From NCBI GenBank assembly GCA_019800895.1, contig JAHVKF010000001.1:372001-436000 (forward strand): DNA of 64,000 bases, read 5' to 3'. Origin of the DNA: Halomonas denitrificans (lineage in GTDB: Bacteria > Pseudomonadota > Gammaproteobacteria > Xanthomonadales > Wenzhouxiangellaceae). A model generated the notes under the pieces. It had not been told where the DNA came from. It worked only from the letters and a program-made list of their open reading frames with translations, and did not search any database. The translations under genes and the position numbers were made by a program. Shown here one piece after another: positions 12,547 to 19,983 of this stretch (position 1 is its first letter; each line of letters opens with the position of its first letter).

Positions 12547-12647
12547 GGGTCAGGGACTGGTAAAACCTCGGAATCGGGCGGTTTTCCGGTCCCTACTGGT
12601 CCCCTACCCCTGGTCCCTGGTCCCTGGTCCCTGGTCCCTGGTCCCTG
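12528..12647. repeat. family B repeat with five tandem tggtccc heptamers between murU and phosphatase
   Basis: The left arm at 12528-12560 carries GGGGCAAGGGACTAGGGG-type units. The right arm at 12588-12647 carries their complements and contains five exact tandem copies of tggtccc at 12611-12645. The inner part (gtaaaacctc ... gcggttttcc) is itself inverted. The element lies inside the 3' ends of both convergent genes and supplies their stop codons. Confidence 0.9.
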
Positions 12648-14293
12648 ATTTTCCTCCATTCCGGCATGCCGGACTCCCCGGTGATCGACTCGGCGGCATC
12701 CCGCAGGGCCGGCTGGGCCTGGAGCAGGGCGTGGAAGATCAGGTGCTGTTCGATCGAGCCGGTCAACGCCTCGGCGCCCGGTCCGGTCGCGTAGACGGGG
12801 ACATCCTCGCCGCCGTGGGTCGACTGTGACACGCCGAAGACCGCCTCCTGCTTGTAGTCCGGATCCCTCGGCTCGCCGGGTGCCAGGTCGGGGCGCGGCC
12901 CCGGTCGATAGCCGGGGCCGTTGATGTAGTTGAGCGTCGTGAAGGGCTTGCCGTCGATATCACGCGCCAGGCGCGGGGGCTCGCCGGCCGGGCCGGGGCC
13001 GTGGGTCCGGCCCAGGATCGGGTTGCCACGCCCTCCGTAGCCACCGAAGGTGAGCGCATGGCCGTGATCGGCGGTGACCACGACCAGGGTCTCGGCGCGA
13101 TCGACGCGATCGAGCACCGCGGCGACGGCCTCGGACAGCAGGATCGTCTCGTCGAGCGCGCGGAAGGCGTTGCCTTCATGGTGGGCGTGATCGATGCGGG
13201 CGCTTTCGACCACGAGCACGAAGCCGCCGGGCTGGCCTTCCCCGCCGTCGCGTTCCCCGGGGGTGCCCGCGGTCCGCTGCCGAAGCAGGTCCAGCGCGCG
13301 GACGGTCATCTCGACCAGCGACGGCTCGCCGGCGCCGTCGTCGGCGCGGTCGTGTCGGTAGCGCATGTGCGATCGATCGAACAGGCCGAGGACCGGGCCG
13401 TCCGGCGCCTCGGGAAGCGCCTCGAATTGCTCGCGGTTCCAGATGAAGCGACCGTTCGGGAACCGCGCCTGCCAGCGCTCGGTCAGGTCGACGCCGTCCT
13501 GTCGACGTCCGCGCCGATCCGGATACTCCGGGTCGAAGGCCTCGGCCGGCAGGAACCCCGACCGGCCGCCCCCGAACACCACGTCGAACCAGCCGTCGAC
13601 GTCGTAGTCCACGAGCTGCCGGGCGATGTCTCGGCAACCGAGCTCCCGGGCCGTCGGCGACAGACCGCTGTCGTCCTCCCAGCGCCGCTCGGGCGACTTG
13701 GCGTACAGCGCGGCGGGCGTCGCGTGGGTGATTCGCGAATTGGTGACGATCCCGGTCGCGAGACCGGCCCGCCGGGCGAGGTCGAGCAGCGAGACGCGCT
13801 CGCGCCCGGTGGCCGAGCCGCAGTCCGAACGCTCGGCGCGCTGGTCCACGGCGATGCCGCCGGCGAAGGTTTTCACCCCCGTGGCCATGGCGGTCATGGT
13901 CCCGGCCGAGTCGGGCGTCTGCTGGTTGGTGTTGTAGGTCTTGGCCAGCGCCAGGAATTCGAACGCCTCGAACGCCAGCGAGTGCTCCTCGCCCGGTCCG
14001 CCGGCCCGCTGACCGGCCAGGATGCGCGCCGCGCTGATCGTGGCCAGGCTCATTCCGTCGCCGACGAACAGCACCAGGTTGCGCGCCGTGCCCGCCCCTG
14101 CTCGTTCGCGCCGTCGCGCGATTTCGGCCTGCCCGCTGCGGTACCAGCGGCCAGGTGTCTCGGTGATCCGCTCCGCCGTAACGGCCGCAGCCGCGCGCGC
14201 CGGCGTTGTCGACGGTGCATCGGCCAGCGCCGCGCCACCGGAGAGCAGGATGGCCGCGAACACGGCCCGGGTCGAAGGTCGGTCGAGAATCAT
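12593..14293 (-). CDS. periplasmic alkaline phosphatase (PhoA family)
   Basis: Alkaline phosphatases release inorganic phosphate from monoesters in the periplasm. The 566-residue protein has a signal peptide at 1-25 (ending LADAP), metal-binding FVGDGMSLATISAARI near 76-91, the nucleophile Ser in TPDSAGTMTAMATGVKT near 126-142, VVESARIDHAHHEGN with D/H metal ligands, TADHGHALTFGGYGGRGNP and STHGGEDVPVYATGPGA. All canonical ligands are present. The ATG 48 bases inside a longer frame begins the signal peptide and is preferred. The last ~19 residues repeat a GTRDQGP-like motif and are encoded by the family B repeat, so they are unlikely to be functional. It is convergent with murU. Confidence 0.93.
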   Translation of the reverse strand: MILDRPSTRAVFAAILLSGGAALADAPSTTPARAAAAVTAERITETPGRWYRSGQAEIARRRERAGAGTARNLVLFVGDGMSLATISAARILAGQRAGGPGEEHSLAFEAFEFLALAKTYNTNQQTPDSAGTMTAMATGVKTFAGGIAVDQRAERSDCGSATGRERVSLLDLARRAGLATGIVTNSRITHATPAALYAKSPERRWEDDSGLSPTARELGCRDIARQLVDYDVDGWFDVVFGGGRSGFLPAEAFDPEYPDRRGRRQDGVDLTERWQARFPNGRFIWNREQFEALPEAPDGPVLGLFDRSHMRYRHDRADDGAGEPSLVEMTVRALDLLRQRTAGTPGERDGGEGQPGGFVLVVESARIDHAHHEGNAFRALDETILLSEAVAAVLDRVDRAETLVVVTADHGHALTFGGYGGRGNPILGRTHGPGPAGEPPRLARDIDGKPFTTLNYINGPGYRPGPRPDLAPGEPRDPDYKQEAVFGVSQSTHGGEDVPVYATGPGAEALTGSIEQHLIFHALLQAQPALRDAAESITGESGMPEWRKIRDQGPGTRDQGPGVGDQ

Positions 14294-16842: not shown

Positions 16843-16925
16843 GGGGAAAGGGACCAGGGGAACGAGACGGGTAAAACCCTCGCTACGATCGCACTAGCCC
16901 CTAGTCCCTGATCCCTTTCCCCTCG
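16843..16925. repeat. family B inverted repeat at tesB/tsaE 3' ends
   Basis: Left arm 16843-16875 (ggggaaagggaccaggggaa units) and right arm 16886-16925 (ctagtccctgatccctttcc) are inverted, with gggtaaaaccctcgctacga between, the same inner motif as at 12560. The right arm encodes the last residues of TsaE (NEGKGIRD). Confidence 0.85.
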
Positions 16926-17371
16926 TTCCCGAGCCCCTCCACCGTCACGTTCCGCCCCGCGGAGATGTCCGTCGCGTCGGCCGGCTCGATGGAGATCCTG
17001 ACATCCGCCTCGCGCAGCATGCCGCGGCCGCGCTCGGGCCATTCGACCAGCAGCAGCGAATCGGCGCCGATCAGATCGTCCAGGCCGAGGAAGTCGAGTT
17101 CCTCGGGGTCGGTCAGGCGATAGAGATCGAGGTGGTGGACCGTGACGTCGGTGAGGTCGTAGCTCTCGACCAGGCCGTAGGTCGGGCTCTTGACCCGGCC
17201 CTGGTAGCCGAGCCCCCGCAGCACGCCGCGAACCAACGTGGTCTTGCCCGCGCCGAGGTCGCCGGAGAGCCAGACCTGCACCCCGGGCGCGAGGCGGGTG
17301 GCCAGGGTCTCGCCCAGCGCGAGCATCGCCGGCTCGCCGACCGGGCGGTGGGTCTCCGATTCCGGGTTCAT
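16901..17371 (-). CDS. tsaE: tRNA t6A ATPase TsaE
   Basis: TsaE is the ATPase of the TsaBDE complex that makes threonylcarbamoyladenosine at position 37 of ANN-decoding tRNAs. The 156-residue protein has Walker A GDLGAGKTTL at 37-46, VKSPTYGLVESY near 60-71, HHLDLYRL, and VEWPERG at 109-115, all diagnostic. Its ATG overlaps the stop of the upstream nnr gene as ATGA, and this nnr-tsaE pairing is common in gammaproteobacteria, often before amiB-mutL. Here no amiB follows. The C-terminal eight residues come from a family B repeat, so the terminus is longer than a typical one. Confidence 0.95.
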   Translation of the reverse strand: MNPESETHRPVGEPAMLALGETLATRLAPGVQVWLSGDLGAGKTTLVRGVLRGLGYQGRVKSPTYGLVESYDLTDVTVHHLDLYRLTDPEELDFLGLDDLIGADSLLLVEWPERGRGMLREADVRISIEPADATDISAGRNVTVEGLGNEGKGIRD

Positions 17372-18858
17372 CGCGGGAGAACGCGGTGGAGTCCGTCGAT
17401 GACCTGCCCGGCCAGGACCTGGCGCCGACCCCCGGCCGCGACCTCGGCGGCGCGTGCGTGCAGCACCGTACCCGCGCGCGCCGCATCGAACGGCGCCAGG
17501 CCCTGTCCGAGAAGACTCGCAAGAATCCCGGTGAGCGCGTCCCCCATGCCGGCGGTGGCCATCGCCGGCGTGCCGAAGGGGCACACGGCCAGGCGGCCGT
17601 CCGGCGCGGCGGTCAGGGTTCCGAAGCCCTTCAGGACGACCACGGCGTGATAGCGCCCGGCCAGTTCGCGAGCGGCCGCGAAGCGATCCCTCTGAACCTC
17701 CTGGCTGTCGACGCCGAGGAGGCGCGCCGCCTCGCCCGGGTGCGGGGTCAGGATCCAGCCATCGCGCTCCAGGCGGCGGCCGTCACGGCCCTCGGCCAGG
17801 CGGTTGAGGCCGTCGGCATCCAGCACCAGCGGCGTATCGCGCCGGACCAGTCGATCCCAGACCGCCCGCGACCAGTCGCTCCGACCCAGGCCCGGGCCCA
17901 GCGCGATGACGTCCGCGCGTTCGGCCAGCGAATCGAGCCGATCGCCGTCCTCGGCGTCGGCCCACATCGCCTCCGGCAGGCCCGAGGCCATGACCGGTGC
18001 GTGCGCCGCCCGGGTCGCGACCGACACCAGGCCGGAGCCCGCCTCCAGCGCGGCGCGGGCGGCGAGCAGCGCGGCGCCGGGCATCCCGTGGTCGCCGCCG
18101 CAGACCAGCACGTGGCCCAGATCGCCCTTGTGGGTCGAGGCCCGCCGCGGGGTCAGCCAGCGCGCGGCGACGTCGGCGTCCAGCCGCTCGGCGTCCGGCT
18201 CGGTCGCATCGAAGGCCTGCTCGGGAACATCCAGCGGGGCCAGCACGAGCTCTCCGGTCCAGTCCCCCGCCGAGCCGGTCAGCAGGCCCCGCTTCATCGC
18301 GATGAAGGTCACGGTCACGTCGGCGCGAACGGCCACACCCATGGGCTGACCGGTATCGGCATTCAGTCCCGAGGGCACATCCAGCGCCAGCACCGCGGCC
18401 GGGGACTCGTTGATCGCCCGCAGGGATGCGGCGATGTCGTCGCGAACCGCCCGGTCCAGCCCGGTGCCGAGCACCGCGTCGACCACGAGGTCGGCGCCGT
18501 CCAGTGTCCCGCCCAGTGCTTCGGCGGCGTGGATCGCACCGCCGGACCGACGCCAGGCCGCGCACGCGTTCGCGGCCTCGCCGCTCAAGCCATCGGGATT
18601 CGCCAGAGCGACCAGGTCGACGGCGAGGCCGGCGGCCCGGGCGTGCCAGGCCACGACATAGCCATCGCCGCCATTGTTGCCGCCGCCGCAGACCACCACG
18701 ATCCGACCCGCCTTCGGAAATCGCTCGCGGAGCGCTTCGAAGGCCGCGCGGCCCGCGCGCTCCATCAGTTCCGGACCCGGGATTCCCAGCTCGTCGATCG
18801 CGCGTGCGTCGATCGCTCGGGCCTGCTCGGCCCGATATACTCCGTCGGCATGTCGCAT
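17368..18858 (-). CDS. nnr: bifunctional NAD(P)HX epimerase/dehydratase
   Basis: This enzyme repairs hydrated NAD(P)H: the N-terminal epimerase (residues about 1-215; VVCGGGNNGGDGYVVAWH, DAVLGTGLDR, LALDVPSGLNADTG) equilibrates the R and S forms, and the C-terminal ADP-dependent dehydratase (about 230-496; THKGDLGHVLVCGGDHGMPG, LDADGLNRLA, TPHPGEAARLLG, VLKGFGTLTA, TAGMGDALTGILASL) restores the cofactor. The 496-residue length is normal. The start codon lies in a 9-bp palindrome shared with queG on the other strand, and a perfect TATAAT lies seven bases upstream, so the mRNA may be leaderless. It overlaps tsaE by four bases. Confidence 0.96.
   Translation of the reverse strand: MRHADGVYRAEQARAIDARAIDELGIPGPELMERAGRAAFEALRERFPKAGRIVVVCGGGNNGGDGYVVAWHARAAGLAVDLVALANPDGLSGEAANACAAWRRSGGAIHAAEALGGTLDGADLVVDAVLGTGLDRAVRDDIAASLRAINESPAAVLALDVPSGLNADTGQPMGVAVRADVTVTFIAMKRGLLTGSAGDWTGELVLAPLDVPEQAFDATEPDAERLDADVAARWLTPRRASTHKGDLGHVLVCGGDHGMPGAALLAARAALEAGSGLVSVATRAAHAPVMASGLPEAMWADAEDGDRLDSLAERADVIALGPGLGRSDWSRAVWDRLVRRDTPLVLDADGLNRLAEGRDGRRLERDGWILTPHPGEAARLLGVDSQEVQRDRFAAARELAGRYHAVVVLKGFGTLTAAPDGRLAVCPFGTPAMATAGMGDALTGILASLLGQGLAPFDAARAGTVLHARAAEVAAGGRRQVLAGQVIDGLHRVLPR
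18836..18841 (+). promoter_or_regulatory. -10 box of queG, inside nnr
   Basis: TATACT (5 of 6) ends eight bases before the queG ATG, within the first codons of nnr on the opposite strand. The spacing predicts transcription starting at or next to the A of ATG. No -35 consensus is visible. Confidence 0.55.
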
Positions 18859-19983
18859 GGCTCCGATTATAAGAACGAATCGCCGCTCGACGCGGCGCGA
18901 CTCGTGTCCGACCTCCGCGAATGGGGCCGCTCGCTCGGATTCCAGAAGATCGGCATCAGCGACATCGATCTCGCGGCCGACGAGCGCCGCCTCGAGGCCT
19001 GGCTCGCGGACGGCCGGCACGGCGAGATGGAGTGGATGGCGCGGCACGGCCACAAGCGCTCCCGGCCGGAGCAACTGGTCCCCGGCACCCGCTCGGTCAT
19101 CGTCGCGCGGATGGACTACCTGCCCGAATCCGCGACCGACCCGCTCGAGCTGGCCGAGCGCGGCGATCGCGCGTGCATCTCGCGCTATGCGCTGGGACGC
19201 GACTACCACAAGATCCTGCGCGCCCGGCTGAAGTCCCTGGCCGGCCGGATCGAAGAACGGATCGGTCCCTTCGGTTACCGGGTGTTCACCGATTCCGCCC
19301 CCGTGCTGGAAAAGCCGCTCGCCGCCAAGGCCGGGCTGGGTTGGATCGGCAAGCACACCAACCTGCTCGACCGCCATGCGGGCAGCTGGTTCTTTCTCGG
19401 CGAGATCTACACCGATCTCGCCCTGCCGGCCGACGAGCCGGTGCGCGATCACTGCGGCTCCTGCCGACGCTGCATCGACGTCTGCCCGACCGACGCGATC
19501 ACCGCGCCCTACCAGCTCGATGCGCGGCGATGCATCTCGTACCTGACGATCGAACTGAAGGGCGCGATCCCGGTGGAGTTCCGCCGCGCGATCGGCAACC
19601 GCGTCTACGGCTGCGACGATTGCCAGGCGGTCTGCCCGTGGAACCGCTACGCGGACTTCACCGGCGAACGCGACTTCACGCCCCGTGAGGGCCTGGATGC
19701 GCCGAAGCTCGTCGACCTGTTCGCCTGGAGCGAGCAGGAGTTCCTCGACCGGACCCGGGGCAGCGCGATCCGGCGGATCGGCCACGAACGCTGGCTGCGG
19801 AATCTCGCCGTCGGCCTCGGCAATGCGCCGACCTCGCCCGAGGTGCTCGAGGCGCTGCGCGCCCGCGCGGACCACCCTTCGGCGCTGGTCCGGGAGCACG
19901 TGGCCTGGGCGCTGGCCCAGCACGGCGTGCCGGGCAGGGGAAAGGGGAACGGGAAAAGGGGAGCGGAAACGCGTGGAGCCTAG
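18850..19983 (+). CDS. queG: epoxyqueuosine reductase
   Basis: QueG performs the last step of queuosine synthesis in tRNA, reducing epoxyqueuosine with cobalamin and two 4Fe-4S clusters. The 377-residue protein shows GFQKIGISDIDL near 32-43, EWMARHGHKRSRPEQLVPG, cobalamin-domain RYALGRDYHK, KAGLGWIGKHTNLL, and the ferredoxin motifs CGSCRRCIDVCPTDAI and CDDCQAVCPWN. A HEAT-like C-terminal domain follows (HPSALVREHVAWAL). The tail after HGVPG is encoded by a family B repeat and is not conserved. The start matches the family N-terminus. It is divergent from nnr with both start codons inside 9 bp and a TATACT box eight bases before its ATG. Confidence 0.96.
   Translation: MSHGSDYKNESPLDAARLVSDLREWGRSLGFQKIGISDIDLAADERRLEAWLADGRHGEMEWMARHGHKRSRPEQLVPGTRSVIVARMDYLPESATDPLELAERGDRACISRYALGRDYHKILRARLKSLAGRIEERIGPFGYRVFTDSAPVLEKPLAAKAGLGWIGKHTNLLDRHAGSWFFLGEIYTDLALPADEPVRDHCGSCRRCIDVCPTDAITAPYQLDARRCISYLTIELKGAIPVEFRRAIGNRVYGCDDCQAVCPWNRYADFTGERDFTPREGLDAPKLVDLFAWSEQEFLDRTRGSAIRRIGHERWLRNLAVGLGNAPTSPEVLEALRARADHPSALVREHVAWALAQHGVPGRGKGNGKRGAETRGA
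18866..18871 (-). promoter_or_regulatory. -10 box of nnr, inside queG
   Basis: A perfect TATAAT on the minus strand ends seven bases before the nnr ATG, inside queG codons 6-8. It faces the queG -10 box, with both start codons between them. The expected transcript starts at the ATG. GGAG only two bases before ATG is too close to be a normal ribosome site. Confidence 0.6.

Follow-up and report, generated by a model that had tools for sequence, protein, structure and literature searches.

A TA-like signal lying ~12 bp before the start has been taken to indicate a leaderless gene, and in the survey of Zheng et al. (2011, PMC3160421) such TA boxes are described, among the γ-Proteobacteria, as most abundant in Xanthomonadales and Legionellales. 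As NCBI places the family Wenzhouxiangellaceae in Chromatiales, the Xanthomonadales result as presented there may omit this family. A second related system is the bidirectional promoter as described by Warman et al. (2026, PMC12825309), where divergent transcription depends on one shared -10 element and the start sites lie on either side of it or within it. In the experiments described in that report, five of five bidirectional promoters of E. coli worked without polymerase competition at basal activity, and competition emerged when one side was strongly activated. A third is the scbA-scbR pair of Streptomyces coelicolor, whose face-to-face promoters have been modelled as bistable, with one product repressing both (PMC3134472).

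In this study, we analysed the divergent queG and nnr genes of Halomonas denitrificans (Wenzhouxiangellaceae) in a stretch of 64,000 nucleotides, hereafter the window. The evidence set out below makes it quite probable that the two genes are served by two leaderless, -10-only promoters which face each other, each lying inside the other gene, and that both genes are expressed rather than switched. The features concerned, in window coordinates, are the following.

16901-17371, minus strand: tsaE, t6A ATPase, the next gene downstream of nnr (TIGR00150 above cut-off)
17368-18858, minus strand: nnr (yjeF), bifunctional NAD(P)HX epimerase/dehydratase, 496 aa plus stop (yjeF_nterm and yjeF_cterm, both above cut-off)
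18836-18841, plus strand: predicted -10 box of queG, TATACT, in the nnr coding sequence at nnr codons GTA TAT (from sequence reading and relatives)
18848-18850, plus strand: predicted transcription start of queG, 0-2 nt before the ATG (from the hexamer position)
18850-18858, both strands: overlapping starts ATGTCGCAT, with the queG ATG on the plus strand at 18850 and the nnr ATG on the minus strand at 18858 (from the sequence)
18857-18859, minus strand: predicted transcription start of nnr, at or within 1 nt of the ATG (from the hexamer position)
18866-18871, minus strand: predicted -10 box of nnr, TATAAT (ATTATA on the plus strand), in the queG coding sequence at codons GAT TAT (from the sequence and relatives)
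18850-19983, plus strand: queG, epoxyqueuosine reductase, 377 aa plus stop (TIGR00276, 513 bits)

Direct reading of the window bears out the hexamers, coordinates and 8- and 7-bp spacings given in a preliminary description of this DNA. On the plus strand, 8 bp (18842-18849) separate TATACT from the queG ATG (18850-18852), and the minus-strand nnr ATG, which appears as CAT at 18856-18858, is followed by 7 bp (18859-18865) before its own box. The overlap had also been called a 9-bp palindrome, which is incorrect: the reverse complement of ATGTCGCAT is ATGCGACAT, and the symmetry is confined to the outer ATG...CAT (an ATGnnnCAT dyad). M-x-H forms the N-terminal start of both the QueG and the Nnr protein, and both products match enzyme families. 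Open reading frames run across both genes, the queG frame from 17386 to 19983 (plus strand, 865 aa) spanning nearly the whole of nnr in antisense, and the nnr frame from 17368 to 19923 (minus strand, 851 aa) spanning nearly all of queG. Because both frames stay open through the opposite gene, automatic start calls at queG/nnr are unreliable. At the distal end of nnr, the likely tsaE ATG and the nnr stop codon overlap as ATGA (17371-17368), a stop/start overlap like that of an operon. No RNA family reached its gathering score in the window.

The nonamer ATGTCGCAT is by itself unremarkable, with one occurrence in the window against 0.45 expected. The boxes, by contrast, are rare: over both strands of 464 kb of the genome (GC 0.684), TATAAT and TATACT occur eight times each, and the total for six -10 variants is 56 in the 928,000 strand positions. 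By our own arithmetic from these counts, which include both boxes at queG/nnr, the chance of any variant 5-9 nt before one given start is ~3e-4, and that for both starts is ~9e-8. The 464 kb contain 2,667 ATGs that begin a frame of 150 codons or more, many of which surely belong to spurious ORFs; only four of these ATGs have one of the six variants 5-9 nt upstream, and two of the four are queG and nnr. Chance is ruled out as an explanation by the conservation of the element in relatives. Elsewhere in the window, TACAAT lies 7 nt before an ATG (MILDRPST...) of an alkaline phosphatase gene (PF00245) at 14293 on the minus strand, which is possibly a further leaderless gene. The 3' end of this ORF carries the tandem 7-base repeat CCCTGGT (5.7 copies, 12596-12647), which gives it a repetitive tail, and a tandem repeat of 12 bases in ~6 copies is found at 899-972.

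Comparison among genomes shows a sharp peak at 6-8 nt in the distance from hexamer to ATG. It is seen for both genes in family loci, in loci from other families and in a class sample of one genome per family (queG in 102 of 132 genomes). Within the family, a hexamer stands 5-9 nt before nnr in 35 of 38 loci (31/34 after removal of four duplicates) and before queG in 22 of 37 (19/33 deduplicated, or 25/33 if the first T may vary). Among the loci from outside the family, which are biased toward the best queG matches, the corresponding counts are 34/64 for nnr and 36/79 for queG (33/63 and 36/79 minus one duplicate). In the class sample, 24 queG hexamer-ATG pairs fall at 6-8 nt where ~3 would be expected, and 24 nnr pairs where ~2 would be, the expectations being our own arithmetic from distances 10-44 in the 86 queG and 54 nnr loci with an in-frame ATG. 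The -10 box of either gene sits at the usual Shine-Dalgarno position. A search of 26 promoters from 13 loci for a -35 element gave none above chance (best match 2.73/6 against 2.60 in shuffles). The preliminary description had proposed that both mRNAs are leaderless. The -10-like spacing of both boxes, on which this proposal depends, is supported by the comparison, and the start positions given above are those we infer from it.

Conservation of the nonamer and of both hexamers in relatives had been named as a check, and the layout ATGnnnCAT is indeed kept together with both hexamers in part of the Wenzhouxiangellaceae. Of 43 family genomes, 36 of which gave a queG match, 12 contain a composite pattern with strict hexamers, TATAMT-N5..9-ATGnnnCAT-N5..9-AKTATA. 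Among 398 genomes of the order, which here means the search tool's own grouping and not the NCBI placement given above, it was found in the same 12 family genomes, once per genome. All 12 matches are at queG/nnr, with N8/N7 and an identical 36-bp geometry, and the same pattern read backwards as a control matched one of the 398. Within the scope of this strict-hexamer search of 398 order genomes, the inside-out form appears to be found only in Wenzhouxiangellaceae. A search for a viral queG relative gave two pattern matches, neither of which was confirmed by tblastn.

We also chose 20 family loci by gene spacing (-8, +1 or +7), having already seen their sequences before choosing, and 19 of them carry ATGnnnCAT. 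In every one of these, nnr is preceded at 7 nt by a -10-like hexamer (18 TATAAT and 1 TATGAT), and queG at 7-8 nt by another (11 TATAAT, 2 TATACT and 6 GATAAT). The six overlap loci with GATAAT, where the queG box lacks its first T, encode an Nnr with an extended N-terminus and have the queG box over other nnr codons. The exception among the 20, L005, has both hexamers but lacks ATGnnnCAT; if queG began there with TTG, the starts would overlap by 12 bp. A third compact layout is seen in four loci from two other family genera (L122, L123, L124 and L029), where the nnr -10 box and the probable ATG of queG run into each other as ATTATATG. L014, which is truncated and lacks nnr, was left out, as were, where stated, the duplicates L032, L033, L034, L035 and L061 or their twins. 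Column-conservation figures were dropped as evidence, because their 13 loci had been picked by a pattern containing the hexamers.

Since each box lies in a coding sequence, the hexamers might be by-products of protein constraint, imposed by the LYRA motif of Nnr and the DY dipeptide of QueG, with the real promoters elsewhere. The queG box does overlie LYRA, and LYRA is largely conserved in Nnr with or without a -10 box, as such a constraint would have it. However, where a leucine lies under the queG box, all 12 relatives with the box encode it by TTA, and none of the 14 without it do (8 CTG, 3 CTT and 3 CTC), and background use of TTA is 27 in 1667 leucines in the rest of queG and nnr. The window and L002 have valine (GTA) at this site and thus lie outside the test, and L019, where the register fell on other residues, was excluded (its leucine codon is CTG). 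As the loci are related and not independent, the leucine-codon evidence is weakened; well-supported branches offer only three independent contrasts, which agree in direction (sign test p 0.25). This codon bias suggests that selection acts on the DNA of the queG box, beyond the protein alone. Against protein constraint there is further that DY is absent at the QueG start of loci with separated starts such as L006, L010 and L113 and changed in L016, and that the 6-8 nt spacing peak recurs in other sequence contexts. We therefore give scarcely any credence to an origin of the boxes in protein constraint.

Leaderless signals at this gene pair are spread well beyond the family. In 100 of the 102 class-sample loci (the window's own genome and G025 being set aside), the fetched stretch of ~900 bp upstream places nnr head to head with queG in 59. 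Hexamers 5-9 nt before an ATG are present for both genes in 17 of these 59, for nnr only in 11, for queG only in 5 and for neither in 26; of the 41 loci without nnr in the stretch, six have a queG signal. Among the 17 doubly signalled loci, 13 share one -10, three are back to back and one is crossed; the face-to-face form is not among them. The box is TATCATA or TATTATA, with both ATGs 6-8 nt off, in 10 of the 13 loci with a shared -10. Our first collection of 106 loci with nnr gave, with deduplicated counts in brackets, 20 (19) face to face, 15 (13) back to back, 6 sharing a -10, 1 crossed and 64 (62) without a signal on one or both genes. A symmetric TATCATA between queG and nnr, with the ATGs 6-8 nt away, was seen in L164, L166, L169, L175, L186, L194, L197, L202 and L211. 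These nine loci, from nine sampled families, may each represent a bidirectional promoter, leaderless on both sides, of two housekeeping genes. Outside the family, the usual doubly leaderless form thus places the starts on either side of a central -10, and the window has the inside-out version of it.

The preliminary description had held that its reading would be refuted by relatives in which the start codons lie apart and the hexamers are missing, and the nine core loci with separated starts are divided on this point. Two of them, L008 and L012, which are congeners of the window, lack both hexamers at leaderless distance and so fit that condition, whereas six (L006, L007, L010, L016, L112 and L113) keep both and contradict it, and L125 keeps that of nnr but not that of queG. 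L007 and L125 come from one genome bin with two queG/nnr loci. L016 (genome G017), where queG and nnr lie ~1.1 kb apart, amounts to a natural experiment. There queG retains TATAAT-N8-ATGAGTCAT and nnr is preceded by a separate TATAAT-N7-ATG, whereas the place in queG that corresponds to the nnr box is degenerate and reads ATGACA. On a queG tree of the core family (29 rows, without the more distant genera represented by L027, L029 and L122-L124), the inside-out form occupies 19 rows and at least five layout changes are needed, three of them forced by well-supported branches. A wider queG tree of 39 rows needs six. As non-overlap rows are interspersed among overlap rows, the simplest reading, with modest support on a tree whose root was not inferred, would be one gain and several losses of the overlap.

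These relatives also bear on the earlier suggestion that the arrangement enforces exclusive expression, in which the overlapping promoters would compete so strongly that queG and nnr alternate. The geometry implies that the polymerase footprints must overlap, the layout persists in 19 of the 29 core rows, and the modelled bistability of scbA-scbR offers a precedent for face-to-face promoters. The suggestion is nevertheless not supported by our results. The layout has changed at least five times on the tree while the promoters were mostly retained in separated relatives, six of nine of which keep both boxes. To our knowledge no antagonism exists between the products of queG and nnr, and the nnr stop overlaps the tsaE start in an operon-like manner. 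Basal bidirectional promoters of E. coli, in the cases described by Warman et al. (PMC12825309), also work without competition. An exclusive switch is on these grounds very improbable.

A milder alternative is that the leaderless promoters interfere moderately with each other, with the effect of damping the two genes or the noise in them, and that this coupling is kept by selection. Opposing polymerases would have to pass each other's promoter, and in E. coli a constraint from polymerase interference lowered cell-to-cell variation in the work of Warman et al. (PMC12825309). Layout changes without promoter loss suggest that selection for coupling is weak, however, and we regard moderate interference as conceivable but rather doubtful.

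We thus favor two leaderless, probably constitutive promoters, compactly nested, that serve both genes together. In the simplest scenario, each gene would be transcribed from a -10-only promoter of the sigma-70 type, with a TATAMT box 7-8 bp before the ATG, and the nine-base ATGnnnCAT overlap would place each -10 inside the coding sequence of the partner, with the promoters facing. Polymerases would start within ~2 nt of each ATG, so that the mRNAs begin at or next to AUG and would be translated without a leader, and each polymerase, once started, would run across the opposing promoter. Mutual steric exclusion of polymerases within ~36 bp would follow from the geometry; simultaneous occupancy by two polymerases would be impossible, and firing would be rare enough for expression of both genes. 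The effect of promoter crossing would then depend on firing rate. tsaE is essential in E. coli, and prolonged silence on the nnr side would be costly, since the tsaE start overlaps the nnr stop. Leaderless divergent promoters recur across Gammaproteobacteria, and the layout as a whole is probably a compact, promoter-swapped version of them and not a switch.

Over their first ~12 nt, which span both start codons, the predicted queG and nnr mRNAs are exactly complementary, with a predicted duplex of -22.4 kcal/mol. One could speculate that the genes are coupled at the RNA level, an excess of one mRNA masking the AUG of the other through the ~12-nt complement, which together with promoter collision would make a two-gene balancing device in 36 bp. 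We hold such start-codon masking to be unlikely, because rare mRNAs would seldom meet.

In summary, one divergent gene pair appears in Gammaproteobacteria in two opposite topologies, one with a shared -10 lying between the two starts, and the other with shared starts lying between the two -10s. As both genes look leaderless in each topology, these loci form a natural series for asking how small the control region of two genes can get. The same series could probe whether polymerases that face each other do interfere when firing is infrequent, and may show how a promoter gets written into the codons of another gene. Such logic could escape gene callers built to look for a Shine-Dalgarno site or a promoter between genes.

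The divergent arrangement is shared with an E. coli strain (NZ_CP123244.1), where the annotated coding sequences of queG and nnr overlap by 2 bp; unlike the window, this strain shows, 5-9 nt ahead of the two annotated starts, nothing that comes within one mismatch of TATAAT. We found no paper in the open-access literature on a start-codon overlap with swapped -10s, and a search there for queG/yjeF with leaderless or overlapping divergent genes gave nothing relevant. Like the leaderless TA-led genes described in PMC3160421, queG and nnr have a -10-like TA box ~12 bp before the start and no room for a leader. Unlike those genes, which are classed there by their own upstream signal, queG and nnr have overlapping starts, with the predicted promoters in the coding sequence of the partner. 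With the bidirectional promoters of Warman et al. (PMC12825309) the locus shares closely spaced opposing promoters and polymerases that would be mutually exclusive, and the shared symmetric TATNATA topology of queG/nnr seen in other families fits the definition given in that report. The window falls outside this definition, as its -10s are 24 bp apart with the predicted starts between them, so that the transcripts would overlap. In this respect it resembles scbA-scbR (PMC3134472), where facing promoters likewise give transcripts with overlapping 5' ends, although the starts in the window are those we infer from the boxes. The scbA-scbR overlap, as reported, is 53 bp and a repressor acts on both promoters, whereas queG/nnr would overlap by ~12 bp and encode two enzymes with no known repressor. 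Leaderless genes, bidirectional promoters and face-to-face promoters are thus each already known, and what appears to be new at queG/nnr is the overlap of the starts with swapped -10s.
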